Part shown: positions 3,199-11,970 of the stretch, piece by piece | Position numbering within the stretch: position 1 is the stretch's first letter | Layout: each line of letters starts with the position of its first letter | Assembly: GCA_913058395.1 (NCBI GenBank) | Contig: CAJXQI010000002.1 | Location: forward strand, 188,001 to 252,000 | Reading direction: 5' to 3' | DNA from: an uncultured Colwellia sp. | GTDB taxonomy: Bacteria > Pseudomonadota > Gammaproteobacteria > Enterobacterales > Alteromonadaceae | DNA length: 64,000 nucleotides | Position numbers and translations under genes: made by a program | The notes under the pieces: generated by a model | The model's input: only the letters and a program-made list of their open reading frames with translations | Told to the model about the DNA's origin: nothing | Database searches by the model: none

Positions 3199-3224
3199 TC
3201 AGCAAGACGTTCTAAAGAGCGCGT

Positions 3225-4878: not shown

Positions 4879-7563
4879 TTACAATGTACGTTGTACTTCA
4901 ACGGTCTCAAATACTTCAATTTGGTCACCAACGCGTACATCGTTGTAGTTCTTAACACCGATACCACACTCAGTACCGTTACGAACTTCTTGTACGTCAT
5001 CTTTAAAGCGACGTAAAGATTCCAACTCACCTTCGTAAATTACAACGTTTTCACGTAGTACACGAATTGGTGCTGAACGCTTAATAATACCTTCAGTAAC
5101 CATACAACCAGCGATAGCGCCAATTTTAGGAGACTTAAATACATCACGTACTTGTGCCAAACCAATGATTTCTTGTTTAAACTCAGGAGCAAGCATACCG
5201 CTCATTGCTGATTTAACTTCGTCAATCAAGGCATAGATAACACTGTAGTAACGTAAATCGATTTTTTCAGCTTCAATCACTTTACGAGCAGTAGCATCAG
5301 CACGTACGTTGAAACCAACAACAATTGCATTTGACGCTGCAGCTAATGTCGCATCAGTTTCAGTGATAGCACCTACGCCACTACCAATGATTTTGACTTT
5401 AACTTCATCTGTTGAAAGTTTAACTAGTGAATCTGAAATTGCTTCAAGTGAACCTTGAACATCAGATTTAAGTACCACGTTAACTTCAGAAACATCACCT
5501 GTTGCCATGTTAGCAAACATGTTTTCAAGTTTAGACTTCTGTTGACGAGCAAGCTTCACATCGCGGAATTTACCTTGACGGAATAAAGCAACTTCACGCG
5601 CTTTCTTCTCATCTTTAACAACAGTCGCTTCATCACCTGATTGTGGAACACCACTTAAGCCAATGATTTCTACTGGAATAGATGGACCAGCTGATTGAAT
5701 GGTGCGACCATTTTCATCACGCATCGCACGTACACGGCCGTATTCTAAACCACAAAGTACGATATCACCTTGGTTCAATGTACCTTCTTGAACAAGTACG
5801 GTAGCAACTGGGCCACGTCCTTTATCGAGTTTAGATTCAACAACAACACCGTTCGCCATTTTATCAACAACTGCTGTAAGTTCTAAAACTTCAGATTGTA
5901 GCAATATTGCGTCAAGTAATTCGTCAATACCTAAGCCTGTTTTAGCTGATACGTGACAGAATTGAACGTCACCGCCCCATTCTTCAGATAAAACGTCATG
6001 CTGTGACAATTCACTCTTAACACGATCTGGGTCAGCACCCTCTTTATCCATTTTGTTTACAGCGATGATAATTGGCGCTTCAGATGCTTTCGCATGCTGG
6101 ATAGCTTCAACTGTTTGTGGCATTACACCATCATCTGCTGCAACAACAATAATTACGATATCCGTAGCTTTAGCACCACGTGAACGCATAGCGGTAAACG
6201 CGGCATGGCCTGGAGTATCAAGGAAAGTGATCATACCGTGACCAGTTTCAACGTGATAAGCACCAATATGCTGCGTAATACCACCGGCTTCGCCGTCTGC
6301 TACTTTCGCTTCACGAATGTGATCAAGTAATGATGTTTTACCGTGATCAACGTGACCCATGATAGTAACAACAGGTGCACGAGTAATTTCTTCACCTGAA
6401 TGGCCACGATCAGATAATACCGCTTCTTCAAGGGCATTTTCTTTTACTAGTACCACTTCACGGCCCATTTCTTCTGCAACTAGTGCCGCAGTTTCTTGGT
6501 CAATAACTTGGTTAATGGTTGCCATAGCGCCCATTTTGAACATAGCTTTTACAACTTCAGCGCCTTTAACAGACATTTTGTTTGCTAATTCTGCAACTGA
6601 GATAGTTTCGCCAATGCGTACTTCATTCAGCTTAATTTCAACAGGCTTAGTGAAACCATGCTTCAAGCTTTGAGGTGAAGATAAGCTTAACTTGCCCTTA
6701 CCTCTGGCATTGCGACCACGGTTGTTTCTGTCTTGACCAGCAGGTTTTTTCTTCTTGCGTCGACGTCCACTTTCATCGGCAGAGTCACTTTTATCTTCCG
6801 CTTCTTGTGCGTATTTAGAAGAAGTTAAATGTACCACTTCTTTTTCTTTCGCTTTACGTTCGGCTTCTTGCTCTTTCCAACGGGCTTCGTTTTCTTCAGC
6901 AAGCTTACGAGCAGCTTCTGCTGACAATCTAGCTTCTTCTTCAGCTTTTGCTGTTAATTCTGCTTCTTGTTGTAAACGTAATTTTTTCGCATCTTCAGTT
7001 TCAGCTGCCGGAGTTGGCTTAGCAGCCGACTCTTCAATGCTTTTCGCTTTTGCTACTGCTGCTTGCTTAGCTTTAGCTTCTGCTTCAAGTTTGGCTTCTG
7101 CTTTAGCTTCTGCCTGTACTTCAGCTTTAGCAGCTGCAACTGCACGTGCATTTTCAGCTTCTTTAGCATCTGCGACCGCTTTAGCTGCTGCATCTGCTTC
7201 AGCTTTGATACGTGCTTCTTCAGCAATTTTTGCTTCTTCTTCAGCTTGTTGTTGCTCTTCTACGTCGCTACGTTTTACGTAAGTACGTTTTTTGCGAACT
7301 TCAACTTGCACTGACTTAGCCTTACTACCATGACCAAGTACTAGTGTTGATTTTTTCTTACGGCTCAGCGTCATTTTACTTGGGCTAGCGTTTGAATCAT
7401 CACCGTGTTGCTTTTTCAAATGATCAAGCAGGGTTTCTTTTTCTTCTTGCGAAACAGAATCGGTGGCCGATTTATTCACGCCAGAGTCAGCCAATTGGCT
7501 AACTAAGCGATCCACCGGTGTACCGATTTCATTGGCAAGTTGTTCTACTGTTACGGTTGCCAT
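4879..7563 (-). CDS. infB: Translation initiation factor IF-2
   Basis: 894 residues. It delivers fMet-tRNA to the 30S P site and hydrolyses GTP on subunit joining. An IF2N domain (about 1-50) is followed by a long Ala/Glu/Lys-rich, probably helical linker (about 90-290) and a second IF2N-like module near 310-360. Then comes the GTPase: G1 GHVDHGKT (403-410), G3 DTPGH (449-453) and G4 NKMD (503-506), followed by domains II-IV. The linker composition creates long open frames on the opposite strand that are artefacts. nusA lies 21 nt upstream. Confidence 0.98.
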
Positions 7564-7584: not shown

Positions 7585-9081
7585 TTATTCTTCGTTAAAC
7601 CAACAAATGTTACGAGCAGCCATGATTAGCTCTCCCGCTTTGGTTTCATCTAATTCTTCAATATCTGATATTTCATCAACGCCTTGTTCAGCAAGGTCTT
7701 CAAGTGTTCTCACACCTCGACTTGCTAATACAAACGCTAAATGACGTTCTAAACCAGCAAGATTTAATAAATCTTCTGCAGGCTCAGCACCTTCTAGAGT
7801 TTCTTCACTTGCTAACGCTTGAGTGGTAATTGCTGCTTTAGCACGTTCACGCAATTCTTCAACTGTATCTTCATCCATACCATCAATATCAAGCATTTCA
7901 GCTACAGGTACGTAAGCAATTTCTTCTAATGAAGTAAAACCTTCTTCTACTAACATCAAGGCAAAATCTTCATCAAGATCTAGCTTTTCAGTGAATAGTG
8001 TTAATACTTTATCGTTTTCAGCTTGGTGCTTCTCGTTCATGTCTGCAACAGTCATGACGTTAAGTTCCCAGCCAGTAAGTTGGCTTGCTAAACGAACGTT
8101 TTGACCACTACGGCCAATTGCCATTGCTAAATTACCTTCTTCAACGGCAATATCCATGGTGTTTTTGTCTTCATCAACAATGATTGAAGCAACTTCAGCT
8201 GGCGCCATTGCATTGATAACATATTGTGCTGGGTTATCATCGTATAAAACGATATCAACACGTTCGCCACCAAGTTCACCAGATACTGCTTGAACACGTG
8301 AACCACGCATACCAACACAAGCACCAACAGGGTCGATACGCTTGTCGTTACTTTTTACAGAAATTTTCGCACGAGAGCCAGGGTCACGAGCTGCTCCTTT
8401 GATCTCAAGCATCTCTTCGCCAATTTCTGGCACTTCAACGCGGAATAGTTCAATTAACATTTCCGGTTTAGTACGGCTAACAAATAATTGTGCGCCACGT
8501 GCTTCAGGGTTAATGTCATAAAGTAGACCACGAATACGATCGCCCGGACGGAAACTTTCGCGCGGTAACATATCGTCACGGTAAACAATCGCTTCGGCGT
8601 TGTTACCTAGATCTAAAATTACGCTATCACGGCTAGCTTTTTTCACTACACCGGTAATAATCTCACCAATTTGTTCTTGGTAAGCATCAACAATCAATCC
8701 ACGTTCCGCTTCGCGAATTTTTTGTACGATAACTTGCTTCGCTGTTTGCGTTGTTACACGGTCAAATTTAACTGATTCAATTTGATCTTCAACGAAATCA
8801 CCAACATTTAATTCTGGATCATCATATTGTGCTGCAGCTAAACTAATTTCTGCATATGGGTTTTCCATCGGCGTTTCGCTTTCATCAACAACTAACCAAC
8901 GACGGAAGGTATCAAATTCACCACTTGCGCGATCAATACTGACTCGAACGATGATGTCGCCTTCATATTTCTTTTTAGTCGCAGTTTCTAAAGCGGTTTC
9001 CATTGCTTCAAAAATGCTCTCTCGTGGTAATGCCTTTTCATTAGAAACAGCATCTACAACCAGTAATATCTCTTTACTCAT
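7585..9081 (-). CDS. nusA: Transcription termination/antitermination factor NusA
   Basis: 498 residues, close to E. coli NusA (495). The order is the N-terminal RNA-polymerase-binding domain ([24 protein letters not shown]), the S1 domain (from about 135), KH1/KH2 (including [12 protein letters not shown]-type and [18 protein letters not shown] loops) and two C-terminal helix-hairpin-helix acidic repeats ([20 protein letters not shown] and [21 protein letters not shown]). Both repeats are present, as in enterics. It acts on pausing, intrinsic termination and rRNA antitermination, and is a plausible feedback regulator of the terminator-rich leader of its own operon. Confidence 0.98.
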
Positions 9082-9109: not shown

Positions 9110-9571
9110 TTATTTTTTGTGGTTATAAACAAGGTGAGCCTTGTCTATATTACTGATAACAAGTTCATACTCTTCGTTATCAACCATGACGATTAAACTA
9201 TCGTTTTCAATAGCAACTAATTTGCCTTTGAATTTACGACGACCATTTAATGGCATTGAAATTTTTACTTCGATAGTTTCATCAATAACCGCTTCATACT
9301 GCGATTTTTCAAAAAGAGGACGATCAAGTCCTGGTGATGAAACTTCTAAGTTATATTCGCTACTAATAGGATCTTCTACATCTAGAATAGCTCCTACTTG
9401 ACGACTAACTTCTGCGCAGTCATCTACATCGATACCATTTTCATGGTCGATAAATATTCTTAAAACCGAGTGGTTACCTGCACTGATAAATTCAACGCCT
9501 AATAACTCCTTGCCAGTTTCTTCAACGGCAGGACGCAACATTGCAGTCAGTTTGTGTTCAAATTTAGCCAA
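9110..9571 (-). CDS. rimP: Ribosome maturation factor RimP
   Basis: 153 residues with the RimP hallmarks GIDVDDCAEVSRQV (residues 45-58) and LEVSSPGLDRPLF. RimP assists 30S assembly. The chosen start is TTG at 9571-9569, which gives the family N-terminus (AKFEHKLTAMLRP) and has GGAG spaced 8 nt away (9583-9580). A nearer ATG (9575-9573) is in another frame and opens only a three-codon frame that overlaps the TTG. It is the first gene of the nusA-infB operon and is preceded by a long structured leader. Confidence 0.95.
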   Translation of the reverse strand: MAKFEHKLTAMLRPAVEETGKELLGVEFISAGNHSVLRIFIDHENGIDVDDCAEVSRQVGAILDVEDPISSEYNLEVSSPGLDRPLFEKSQYEAVIDETIEVKISMPLNGRRKFKGKLVAIENDSLIVMVDNEEYELVISNIDKAHLVYNHKK

Positions 9572-9604
9572 TCATTTTTCTCCAATTTGGAAGAGTTCAG
9601 AAAC

Positions 9605-9624
9605 AAAAAAAGGGCATATAGCCC
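9605..9624 (-). terminator. Second terminator-like hairpin in the rimP leader
   Basis: GGGC/GCCC (9612-9615 with 9621-9624) with a TATAT loop, followed by seven T on the minus strand, 34 nt before the rimP start codon. The short stem makes it a weak terminator. Confidence 0.5.
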
Positions 9625-9671
9625 AGCGATACACCTTGCTGTCATTGCACCTTTTCATGTTCTTAAGATAC

Positions 9672-9696
9672 AAAAAAGCCCCATTACGCGGGGCTT
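9672..9696 (-). terminator. First intrinsic terminator in the rimP leader
   Basis: A 7-bp GC-rich stem (9676-9682 with 9690-9696), 7-nt loop, six T on the minus strand. It directly abuts the 3' strand of the TTTCACTGA/TCAGTGAAA helix, as expected of an attenuator expression platform. Confidence 0.75.
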
Positions 9697-9822
9697 ATTT
9701 CACTGAACCCACGATGTAAGCCAAATTAAAAACTTGGCTTTTTACAACAATATCTTAGATAATCTTGCCAAACTGGTTAAATTATCTTCTCAGTGAAATA
9801 TTGTTATATTCAAGCTGGGCGA

Positions 9823-9851
9823 ATTATATATAGTTGCCTACGCTATAGCAA
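9823..9851 (-). promoter_or_regulatory. Sigma70 promoter of the rimP operon with GC-rich discriminator
   Basis: On the minus strand TTGCTA (9846-9851), exactly 17 nt, TATAAT (9823-9828), then discriminator TCGCCC. A consensus -10 with a GC-rich discriminator is typical of stringently controlled stable-RNA promoters. It precedes the leader with no gene between. Confidence 0.75.
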
Positions 9852-10083: not shown

Positions 10084-11970
10084 ATGTATACATATACACA
10101 ATTACTGTTAAGAAATTTACTTATTGCATTTGCTTTTAGTCTTGTTGTTGGCATAGCAGGTGCTGTATTTGTAGCAATACAAGCTTCTCAAAATCAGCAA
10201 GTTCATCAACAAGCCTTATTATCTTTTGACAGAACAAGTAGTGATGTAAATGCTGATGAAATGGCCAAGCTATTAACTAGTACTCACCAATACCACTTTA
10301 TTGACATCAGTAAAAGTGATGGTGCTACAGTTATAAATAAACAACAAAAAAGTTTGCCTTTAGCTGAGTTTGTTTTGGCCCCTGTCAATCAAGTCAAGTT
10401 GACTAATTCGGCACTAACCATTCGTTATCAGTTAGCCGTTAGCAAAAGTTTACTTTATTTATTAAACATGGTTCTGACGGTATTTGTACTATCTGTCATT
10501 TTCATTGTGATTGCTGCCTTTTATAGTATTTCGCGCTACCGCCGTTTAGCAAATAAAATCAACCTACAAATAAAACGTGATCTTGCCATGATAATTTCAG
10601 GCAAAGAGCCGTTAGAAGATAATAAAGACGACGAAATTGATTTACCTGAAATTCAGCAGCATTTAACCGAATTAAAAGATTTGATAGCCAGCAGACTATC
10701 AGCAACGACCTTACTTGAAAAAAACGCATATATAGAGCCCGTAACTAAATTAGAAAATCGTAATCGTTTTATTCAATTTTTCGAAAACGCTGACAGCCGT
10801 TCTGACTTTGGTGTGTTATCCATTACTCGTTGTTCGGAATTACAAACCATTAATCAAGTTCATGGCTATCACGAAGGTGATACATATATTCGCGCGGTTG
10901 CTGATATAATGAAACAAGCAACAAGTCCATATAAAGGCGCACAAGTATTTAGACTAAACAGTTCTGATTTCGCTACGCTTATCCCGAATGTGACATTAAA
11001 AAGTGCAGAAAATTTTGCTAATGATATTACTGGGCGTTTCAATGAATACCAACAGAAATCGGATTTAGATTCTGTTGGTTATACAGGTTTGGTCTATTTC
11101 GATAAAAACAAACCTTTAGGGGAGCTATTAGCGCTGGCTGATACCGGTATTAGCATTGCACAAACACAACAGGTTAATGCTTGGTTTGCTCAAACTGACG
11201 ACAGTATTCTAGAAAACTCTAGTGCCAGTTATGGTAATCAAAATTGGCGTCAAGAAATCGATAGCGTCATTGAAAATCAGCGTATTAACCTGCTAGTACA
11301 ACCGATTAAGCCAAGTAGCCCAAATAGTCGAGCCTATGCTGAAATTTTGGCCCGGTTTTTAAATAGTGGTGAAGATACGTTGCCAACCGCGTCATTTTTC
11401 GCAATGGCTGAGAAGCTTGACAAAATTGTTGCCGTTGATCGCATGATAATCGAAGCGGCAATAAAAGAAATTGCCGATAAGAATATGCAAAACCATTTTT
11501 TTGGTATTAATATCAGCGCCCGTTCAATTACTGATGGTCATTTTCTTATTTGGTTAGAGCGTCGTTTGTTACGTGATGCAACCATTGCATCAAAATTGGT
11601 ATTTGAAATCACAGAGTTTGGCTTGCAGCAAAATATTAAAGCCAGTAAAAGTTTTATTGATATGATACATCGAGTTGGCTCACGTATAACTGTAGAGCGC
11701 TTCGGTGTTGGCTTAACATCATTTAAGTTCTTTAGAGATTTAAAGCCTGACTTTATCAAAATGGATAGCACTTACACTCGTGATATAGATGAAGATAAAA
11801 ATAACCAATATTTCTTGCGTTTGATGGTAGATTTAGCGCATCGATTAGGCATTAATGTATTAGCTGAAAGTGTTGAAAGCCAAGAAGAGAAATTTATGCT
11901 AGAAAAACTTTGTGTAGATGGCTGCCAAGGCTTTTATATTGGTAAACCTAAAAGTCTATCTGCTCTCTAA
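10084..11970 (+). CDS. Membrane GGDEF-EAL protein with both active sites degenerate (CsrD/LapD-like)
   Basis: 628 residues. Two membrane helices (about 9-33 and 121-149) flank a short periplasmic loop, followed by a linker, a GGDEF-fold domain (about 205-370) and an EAL-fold domain (about 385-628). The GGDEF signature reads NSSDF (292-296), which cannot make c-di-GMP. In the EAL half, E420 of EIL, N476 and E508 survive, but the metal-binding DDFG is ERFG (538-541), so phosphodiesterase activity is unlikely. Length and topology resemble CsrD (E. coli, 646 aa; promotes CsrB/C decay) and MshH; a LapD-type c-di-GMP receptor is the alternative. It is transcribed alone, divergent from rimP, with a hairpin after the stop. 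Confidence 0.75.
   Translation: MYTYTQLLLRNLLIAFAFSLVVGIAGAVFVAIQASQNQQVHQQALLSFDRTSSDVNADEMAKLLTSTHQYHFIDISKSDGATVINKQQKSLPLAEFVLAPVNQVKLTNSALTIRYQLAVSKSLLYLLNMVLTVFVLSVIFIVIAAFYSISRYRRLANKINLQIKRDLAMIISGKEPLEDNKDDEIDLPEIQQHLTELKDLIASRLSATTLLEKNAYIEPVTKLENRNRFIQFFENADSRSDFGVLSITRCSELQTINQVHGYHEGDTYIRAVADIMKQATSPYKGAQVFRLNSSDFATLIPNVTLKSAENFANDITGRFNEYQQKSDLDSVGYTGLVYFDKNKPLGELLALADTGISIAQTQQVNAWFAQTDDSILENSSASYGNQNWRQEIDSVIENQRINLLVQPIKPSSPNSRAYAEILARFLNSGEDTLPTASFFAMAEKLDKIVAVDRMIIEAAIKEIADKNMQNHFFGINISARSITDGHFLIWLERRLLRDATIASKLVFEITEFGLQQNIKASKSFIDMIHRVGSRITVERFGVGLTSFKFFRDLKPDFIKMDSTYTRDIDEDKNNQYFLRLMVDLAHRLGINVLAESVESQEEKFMLEKLCVDGCQGFYIGKPKSLSAL

Follow-up and report, generated by a model that had tools for sequence, protein, structure and literature searches.

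What does the leader of the rimP-nusA-infB operon sense, and does an upstream structure set termination within it? In the part of the study by Naville and Gautheret (PMC2965389) drawn on here, the rimP leader is the most ubiquitous attenuator and is described without a larger sensing element, hence the question of what it senses has stayed open. We addressed this question at one locus of an uncultured Colwellia sp., within a stretch of 64,000 nucleotides (hereafter the window, from whose first letter all positions are counted). The window carries, on its minus strand, rimP (9110–9571; Pfam RimP_N and RimP C-terminal domain), nusA (7585–9081; NusA_N and KH_5) and infB, encoding IF2 (4879–7563; IF-2, GTP_EFTU and IF2_N). 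The leader extends from a promoter at 9851–9823 to the UUG start codon of rimP at 9571, and a GGAG at 9580–9583 is probably the ribosome-binding site. All 77 Colwelliaceae-type loci have an in-frame UUG start (9571–9569 in the window), as does the E. coli annotation. A divergent gene on the plus strand (10084–11970) encodes GGDEF and EAL domains; its ORF starts ~230 nt from the rimP promoter.

Relatives of the leader were collected through RimP, whose gene was found in 16 of the 17 genomes of the genus and in 286 of 295 genomes sampled from the GTDB family. The leader set comprises the upstream regions of 77 of the 86 listed RimP matches at an identity of at least 71%, and 13 more distant regions were added. 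Genera are GTDB labels: g1 is Colwellia including C. chukchiensis, g38 is C. psychrerythraea, g13 is Thalassomonas, and g21, g27 and g52 are Thalassotalea. We infer that the name Colwelliaceae also suits the other 12 of the 18 genera and hence the whole set of relatives.

A reading made earlier from the sequence alone had proposed a consensus-like promoter with a GC-rich discriminator, followed by about 245 nt without a gene. Both elements are there: TTGCTA (9851–9846), a 17-nt spacer and TATAAT (9828–9823) on the minus strand, then no gene until the rimP start. The promoter match alone was within chance, since a scan of a 901-nt stretch returned four sites against 3.6 expected. Support came instead from conservation, because TTG[CT] is present in the –35 stretch of 77/77 relatives and the discriminator (7 nt 3' of the –10 box) has a G+C fraction of 0.63, compared with 0.30 upstream. 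TATAAT occurred in 73 of the 77 relatives, a count that is not independent because the –10 box was located via a TATA-type pattern.

The sequence-only reading had pointed to an attenuator-like rimP leader catalogued in gammaproteobacteria and had recommended a comparison with its Rfam model. This model, RF01770, matched 9729–9605 with 49.1 bits (gathering score 47), directly 5' of rimP-nusA-infB. The downstream part of the leader is therefore the known gammaproteobacterial rimP leader, with two terminators, T1 and T2. T1 (9672–9696) has the form GCCCC...GGGGC followed by U6; it was detected by a terminator scan at 9696–9676, and its pattern recurs in 77/77 relatives. This is the strong terminator that had been described as abutting the second helix, and only 3 nt separate the 3' strand of that helix from the T1 stem. 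T2 (9605–9624) reads GGGC UAUAU GCCC U7, with stem arms at 9624–9621 and 9615–9612 and the U7 following on the minus strand. It was missed by the terminator scan, yet it forms the terminal hairpin of the RF01770 match. The T2 pattern is also present in 77/77 relatives, in the compact GGGC...GCCC form in all except L042 and L060 (75/77). The earlier proposal of a second, weaker terminator near the ribosome site was thus right as to its presence; the supposedly weaker hairpin is the general, family-defining rimP-leader motif, going by the part of PMC2965389 used here. The tandem arrangement of the model, an upstream CCCg..cGGG and a downstream GGGc..gCCC with a U tract, is found in full, and the conserved portions within the match are GGGUUCAG, T1 and T2.

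Only RF01770 and RF00114 reached their cut-offs in the Rfam scan of the window, in which no riboswitch class was matched. RF00114, the ribosomal S15 leader, lies at 3210–3089 on the minus strand (77.6 bits), before an ORF that we take to resemble rpsO. The sole other family listed for this leader up to E = 1 was asX2, on the opposite strand and with 20.2 bits against its own cut-off of 70, and was rejected. A second, sub-cut-off RF01770 match in the genome from which the window comes (35.7 bits) appeared by eye to be two ordinary terminators by unrelated genes and was taken as chance.

The RF01770 match stops short of the first ~87 nt of the leader, and no Rfam class matched the 5' domain in the window or in 20 scanned relatives. 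The whole 245-nt leader folds far better than its shuffles (–73 against –52.1 kcal/mol, sd 4.3; z = –4.9, 0/200 as good). From promoter to T1, the order of parts is S1a, S2a, a variable hairpin P2, S1b, a hairpin P3, a GGG, S2b and T1, where a and b denote the 5' and 3' strands of a helix. S1 pairs UAUAACAAUAU (9798–9808) with AUAUUGUUGUA (9743–9753), the latter located by partner search and covariation. It interleaves (9808–9798/9753–9743) with S2 (9796–9790/9706–9700), in which UCACUGA (9790–9796) pairs with UCAGUGA (9700–9706). P2 (9757–9787) lies within S1 and varies in sequence and length between aligned leaders; P3 (9718–9740) lies between S1 and S2; the GGG (9708–9710) sits directly 5' of S2b. 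All four helices that had been pointed out earlier, including the interleaved pair, could be located in this way. Beyond the S2 core and the GGG, sequence conservation of the 5' domain is low in the alignments.

S2 was examined across relatives by searching fixed stretches for the patterns [CT]ACT[GA] (S2a) and [CT][AG]GTG (S2b). Both patterns favour pairing, and shuffles of the identical stretches therefore served as control. The S2 pattern was present in 65 of the 77 leaders, spanning 16 genera, whereas shuffles averaged 2.3 (maximum 6); the exact CACUG...CAGUG occurred in 58/77, compared with 0.1 in shuffles. In 62/65 leaders, 31–35 nt separate S2a from the point where the –10 box begins, and in 65/65 the distance from the start of the S2b core to the T1 CCCC is 11–14 nt. 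Between the –10 box and T1, no 5-mers are more frequent than CAGTG (62 of 77) and CACTG (60 of 77), which are reverse complements. Among 66 outgroup loci, the exact S2 pair was found in none of the 42 that have T1. In g52 (nine leaders), an alternative pair stands at the place of S2: ACUCU is matched by at least GGGU, the longest case being ACAACUCU and AGGGUUGU. S2 is absent from g8 (3/77 leaders: L042, L053 and L072); by eye, a UGGGGUGUUG-like stretch in their 5' part is a possible pairing partner for the T1 CCCC. As a signal in single sequences S2 is near chance (p = 0.043 for the window; p < 0.05 in 15 of 86 tested sequences) and was set aside as too weak alone; we regard it as real because it is conserved across relatives, though marginal in any one. 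For S1, 15 nt 5' of S2a were compared with the S2a–S2b interval, which placed the S1 5' strand independently of pairing. The partner found beat shuffles at p < 0.05 in 49/65 leaders and at p < 0.01 in 32/65.

Pair changes were counted on alignment A2, which was built without constraints from the 29 leaders (out of 77) that we chose as better alignable, and the counts hold for those 29 only. This alignment was preferred because in a larger one (A1, 40/77 leaders) S1b seemed misplaced in several genera. The whole structure contains 51 cells changed on both sides against 15.6 in shuffles, with 0/500 shuffles as high. In the main S1 helix, 7/9 pairs change on both sides and 95% of cells are paired; in P3, 7/8 counted pairs do so, with only 73.9% of cells paired. 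S2 has 97.4% of cells paired and 2/7 pairs changed on both sides, one of them owing to three sequences from a single genus, the other to just one sequence, with four unpaired and 13 gapped. The sequence-only reading had staked itself on covariation in at least one helix, and S1, S2 and P3 each contain pairs changed on both sides. RNAalifold recovered S2 and T1 unaided from the unconstrained alignment.

Genus-label permutations, which leave kinship between genera in place, gave p = 0.0005 for S1 (the floor, with one representative per label). For S2 with g52 included, p ranged from 0.0005 to 0.0085 (median 0.0012, 20 draws). When g52 was left out, with the S2 strands located by the pairing-favouring patterns, p rose to 0.13 because the S2 core is nearly invariant. 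The 17 and 18 labels of these permutations correspond to 16 and 17 genera, as L041 was labelled g25x while its genome is listed under g25. Judged from these alignments, S1 covaries strongly and S2 modestly. The case for S2 rests on two near-invariant reverse-complementary blocks at fixed places, on a G-C to A-U change in all three leaders of g46, on changes in its flanks and on its replacement in g52.

A covariance model of the domain found 16/17 genomes of the genus, with one match each at E below 1e-20, beside rimP; the next-best matches in these genomes had E of 0.2 or worse. The 17th genome is 66% complete and also has no RimP match. That S1 and S2 arose by chance, or merely form a structure for mRNA stability without a regulatory role, is in our view barely credible: the weakness of S2 in single sequences speaks for such a reading, and the covariation and conservation over 17 genera, together with the one strong domain match per genome at rimP, speak against it.

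The sequence-only reading had left two options for the interleaved helices, a pseudoknot or mutual exclusion. The interleaving itself holds. Pseudoknot-free folding preferred S1 in 27 of 65 leaders, S2 in 37 and neither in one, so that by this measure the two helices are balanced. S1 and S2, however, have at most one to three bases in common, and in g52 the S2a strand lies within the apical loop in 7/9 minimum-energy folds, an arrangement permitting both helices. On these grounds we favour a pseudoknot over exclusion as the more probable arrangement. Two interleaved helices that each covary, as expected of an H-type pseudoknot, are found, the covariation of S2 being modest and dependent on g52.

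What might such a pseudoknot do to the terminators? In 65/65 leaders, a GGG stands no more than 9 nt from the S2b core and is a possible partner of the T1 CCCC. While T1 still lacks its 3' arm, this anti-T1 GGG:CCC pairing has a mean predicted probability of 0.72 (above 0.3 in 56/65 leaders). It comprises only three to four pairs, is far weaker than T1, and is invariant on both sides. Towards T2, S2b contains GGUUCAGUG, complementary to CGCUGGGCU at the 5' arm (9620–9628); the S2 3' strand would thus be shared with a possible anti-T2 helix, which is worth –13.2 kcal/mol in the window and beats shuffles (p < 0.05) in 30/77 leaders. Complementarity to both terminators, as a putative RF01770-type antiterminator would need, is present, but covariation does not support the anti-T2 helix, with permutation p-values of 0.64 in the clade and 0.13 over 22 order-level representatives (four of 26 were dropped for want of a recognisable T1 or T2). 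Leaders of g46 (3/3) have lost the T2 complement and 7/9 leaders of g52 have a weak one, and S2 is retained in both; we therefore rejected anti-T2 pairing as the sole role of S2b as a general rule. In g52, S2b itself includes the GGG. In each of the 74 leaders with S2, this helix includes or adjoins the GGG; we therefore read S2 as a handle on a putative antiterminator strand.

Comparison of the leaders shows a conserved promoter, S1, an S2 that links the strand after S1a to the strand before T1, and T1 with T2. Beyond this, we tentatively propose, at slightly less than an even chance, a transcription attenuator of rimP-nusA-infB in which a 5' pseudoknot specific to the lineage of Colwellia, Thalassotalea and their kin holds the antiterminator strand. 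GGG-UUCAGUG would be this strand: its GGG would bind the T1 CCCC while T1 is still incomplete, and its GGUUCAGUG would pair with the 5' arm of T2. By holding the strand via S2, the 5' domain would set RNA polymerase read-through of T1 and T2 into rimP. In the likeliest version, S2 withdraws the strand and favours termination, and the operon would be read once something, be it a bound protein, pausing or the state of ribosome assembly, loosens S2.

The opposite effect would follow if S2 locked the antiterminator: S2b would then sit in the loop of an anti-T1 hairpin, its pairing with S2a would stabilise a compound pseudoknot, and the folded domain would favour read-through. The tight spacing at which GGG and CCCC flank S2b in 65/65 leaders fits such a lock, as does the predicted GGG:CCC probability, which rises to a mean of 0.95 when the S2a and S2b cores are treated as occupied; the energy model behind this figure has no pseudoknot terms, and the GGG of g52, being inside S2b, could not serve both pairings. 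We consider locking rather unlikely. Going by the sequences, S2 in g52 would have to remove the GGG, and elsewhere it could either remove or lock it.

For attenuation through a withheld antiterminator strand, the likeliest regulator would be NusA, a plausible candidate by analogy with E. coli, where NusA is reported to lower expression of its own operon, and with B. subtilis, where it is reported to promote termination within its own leader. NusA was also one of the candidate signals of the sequence-only reading, next to IF2 and the state of ribosome assembly. In the parts of the sources cited here, transcripts of the E. coli operon rise when NusA-dependent termination is reduced (PMC6511841), B. 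subtilis NusA autoregulates through leader termination (PMC12288461), and NusA is named the best candidate regulator for rimP leaders (PMC2965389).

NusA could also act on the leader differently. The 5' pseudoknot might bind a protein (NusA, RimP, IF2 or a ribosomal protein) or else a small molecule and act through this contact, close to the RNA exit channel, with no strand exchange, a reading to which the near-invariant S2b core at its fixed distance from T1 and the naming of NusA as candidate in the cited part of PMC2965389 lend some weight. Against it stand the lack of an Rfam class matching the domain and the scarcity of conserved sequence outside the S2 core and GGG. Most ligand pockets are conserved in sequence, unlike this domain. 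We hold this reading to be distinctly unlikely. Very improbable, in turn, is a leader that serves mainly to make the ~145-nt RNA ending at T1, as a stable small RNA with a separate function, with rimP expression as a by-product. The promoter and T1 are conserved in the 77 relatives, and the rimP leader is among the ProQ-associated, attenuator-derived small RNAs in the part of PMC5391140 cited, but T2 and the operon context are also retained.

To what range is this domain confined? In an order-level sample, the domain model found 5/197 genomes, all in the GTDB family of the window; this is not the true range, because the strict filters missed G042 (g27) and G053 (g38), whose leaders carry S2. 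The sequence-only reading had remarked that no tRNA precedes rimP here, and this was borne out by a tRNA scan, with none in the window and none within 500 nt upstream of rimP in 77/77 relatives. A tRNA lies within this distance of rimP in 39 of 93 other loci (27 of the 93 being named Colwelliaceae-type records), the first one being tRNA-Met in 31 and tRNA-Leu in eight; in two of the eight (L131 and L133) a second tRNA is nearer to rimP. The tRNA-Met anticodon arm of E. coli, which has metY at this place, was also seen in 30/30 top-scoring order-level loci, a sample biased to high Rfam scores. Positionally, then, the 5' domain occupies the place that a tRNA gene has in related bacteria, and it may have replaced this gene.

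Other upstream elements were noted along the way. A different conserved motif, GGGCUCCCU, occurs in tRNA-less rimP leaders of Alteromonas and of some relatives (L124, L080, L081, L086, L087, L089, L125, L127, L130, L134, L135, L140, L141, L143 and L146) and is followed by AGUAACG in 13/15. In the same 13 loci, T1 was found, and its 5' arm has a complement in GGGCU, worth –9 to –12 kcal/mol; in the six loci scanned, only the rimP leader reached its Rfam cut-off. In an order-level family (L210, L212, L216–L220 and L222–L226), inspection by eye showed a hairpin of the GUUAAGUG...CACUUAAC type that separates the tRNA-Met gene from GGGUCCAG and makes a third upstream element specific to one lineage.

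A description of the 5' domain was not found among the matches listed in the open-licence literature on rimP and nusA leaders and on structured RNA in Colwellia. The domain may represent an undescribed class of structured RNA that is confined to Colwellia-Thalassotalea and replaced the initiator tRNA gene before the operon for NusA and IF2, a pseudoknot sensor that would pass a bifunctional antiterminator strand to or from two successive terminators; in this full form the proposal is somewhat doubtful. A compact, covarying 5' domain beside T1 would offer a handle on whether upstream structure sets termination, here in the operon of a termination factor itself, and the lineage would also reveal how a leader was rebuilt where relatives carry a tRNA gene.

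How, finally, does this leader compare with known systems? To pseudoknot-plus-terminator riboswitches such as that for fluoride (in the part of PMC11077080 cited), it is alike in outline, a 5' pseudoknot followed by an intrinsic terminator; the Colwellia-type leader has no Rfam riboswitch match, and membership is not claimed. The attenuator of the B. subtilis nusA leader was compared in principle alone, not in sequence. With RF01770 (Naville and Gautheret, 2010, in the cited part of PMC2965389), the leader shares its site before rimP-nusA-infB, GGGU(U/C)CAG, a T1 of CCC...GGG and a T2 of GGGc...gCCC with a U tract. By contrast, the model has no 5' domain, and the ~87 nt extra here take in S1 and P2, some of P3, and S2a; the match also barely exceeds the cut-off. 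The metY-rimP-nusA-infB operon of E. coli likewise has T1 and T2, and its GGGUUCAGUUAU is able to pair over 12 bp with AUAACUGGGCUU at T2. In E. coli, however, the initiator tRNA gene metY is located before T1, whereas the Colwellia-type leader has, between promoter and T1, a putative pseudoknot in place of any tRNA.
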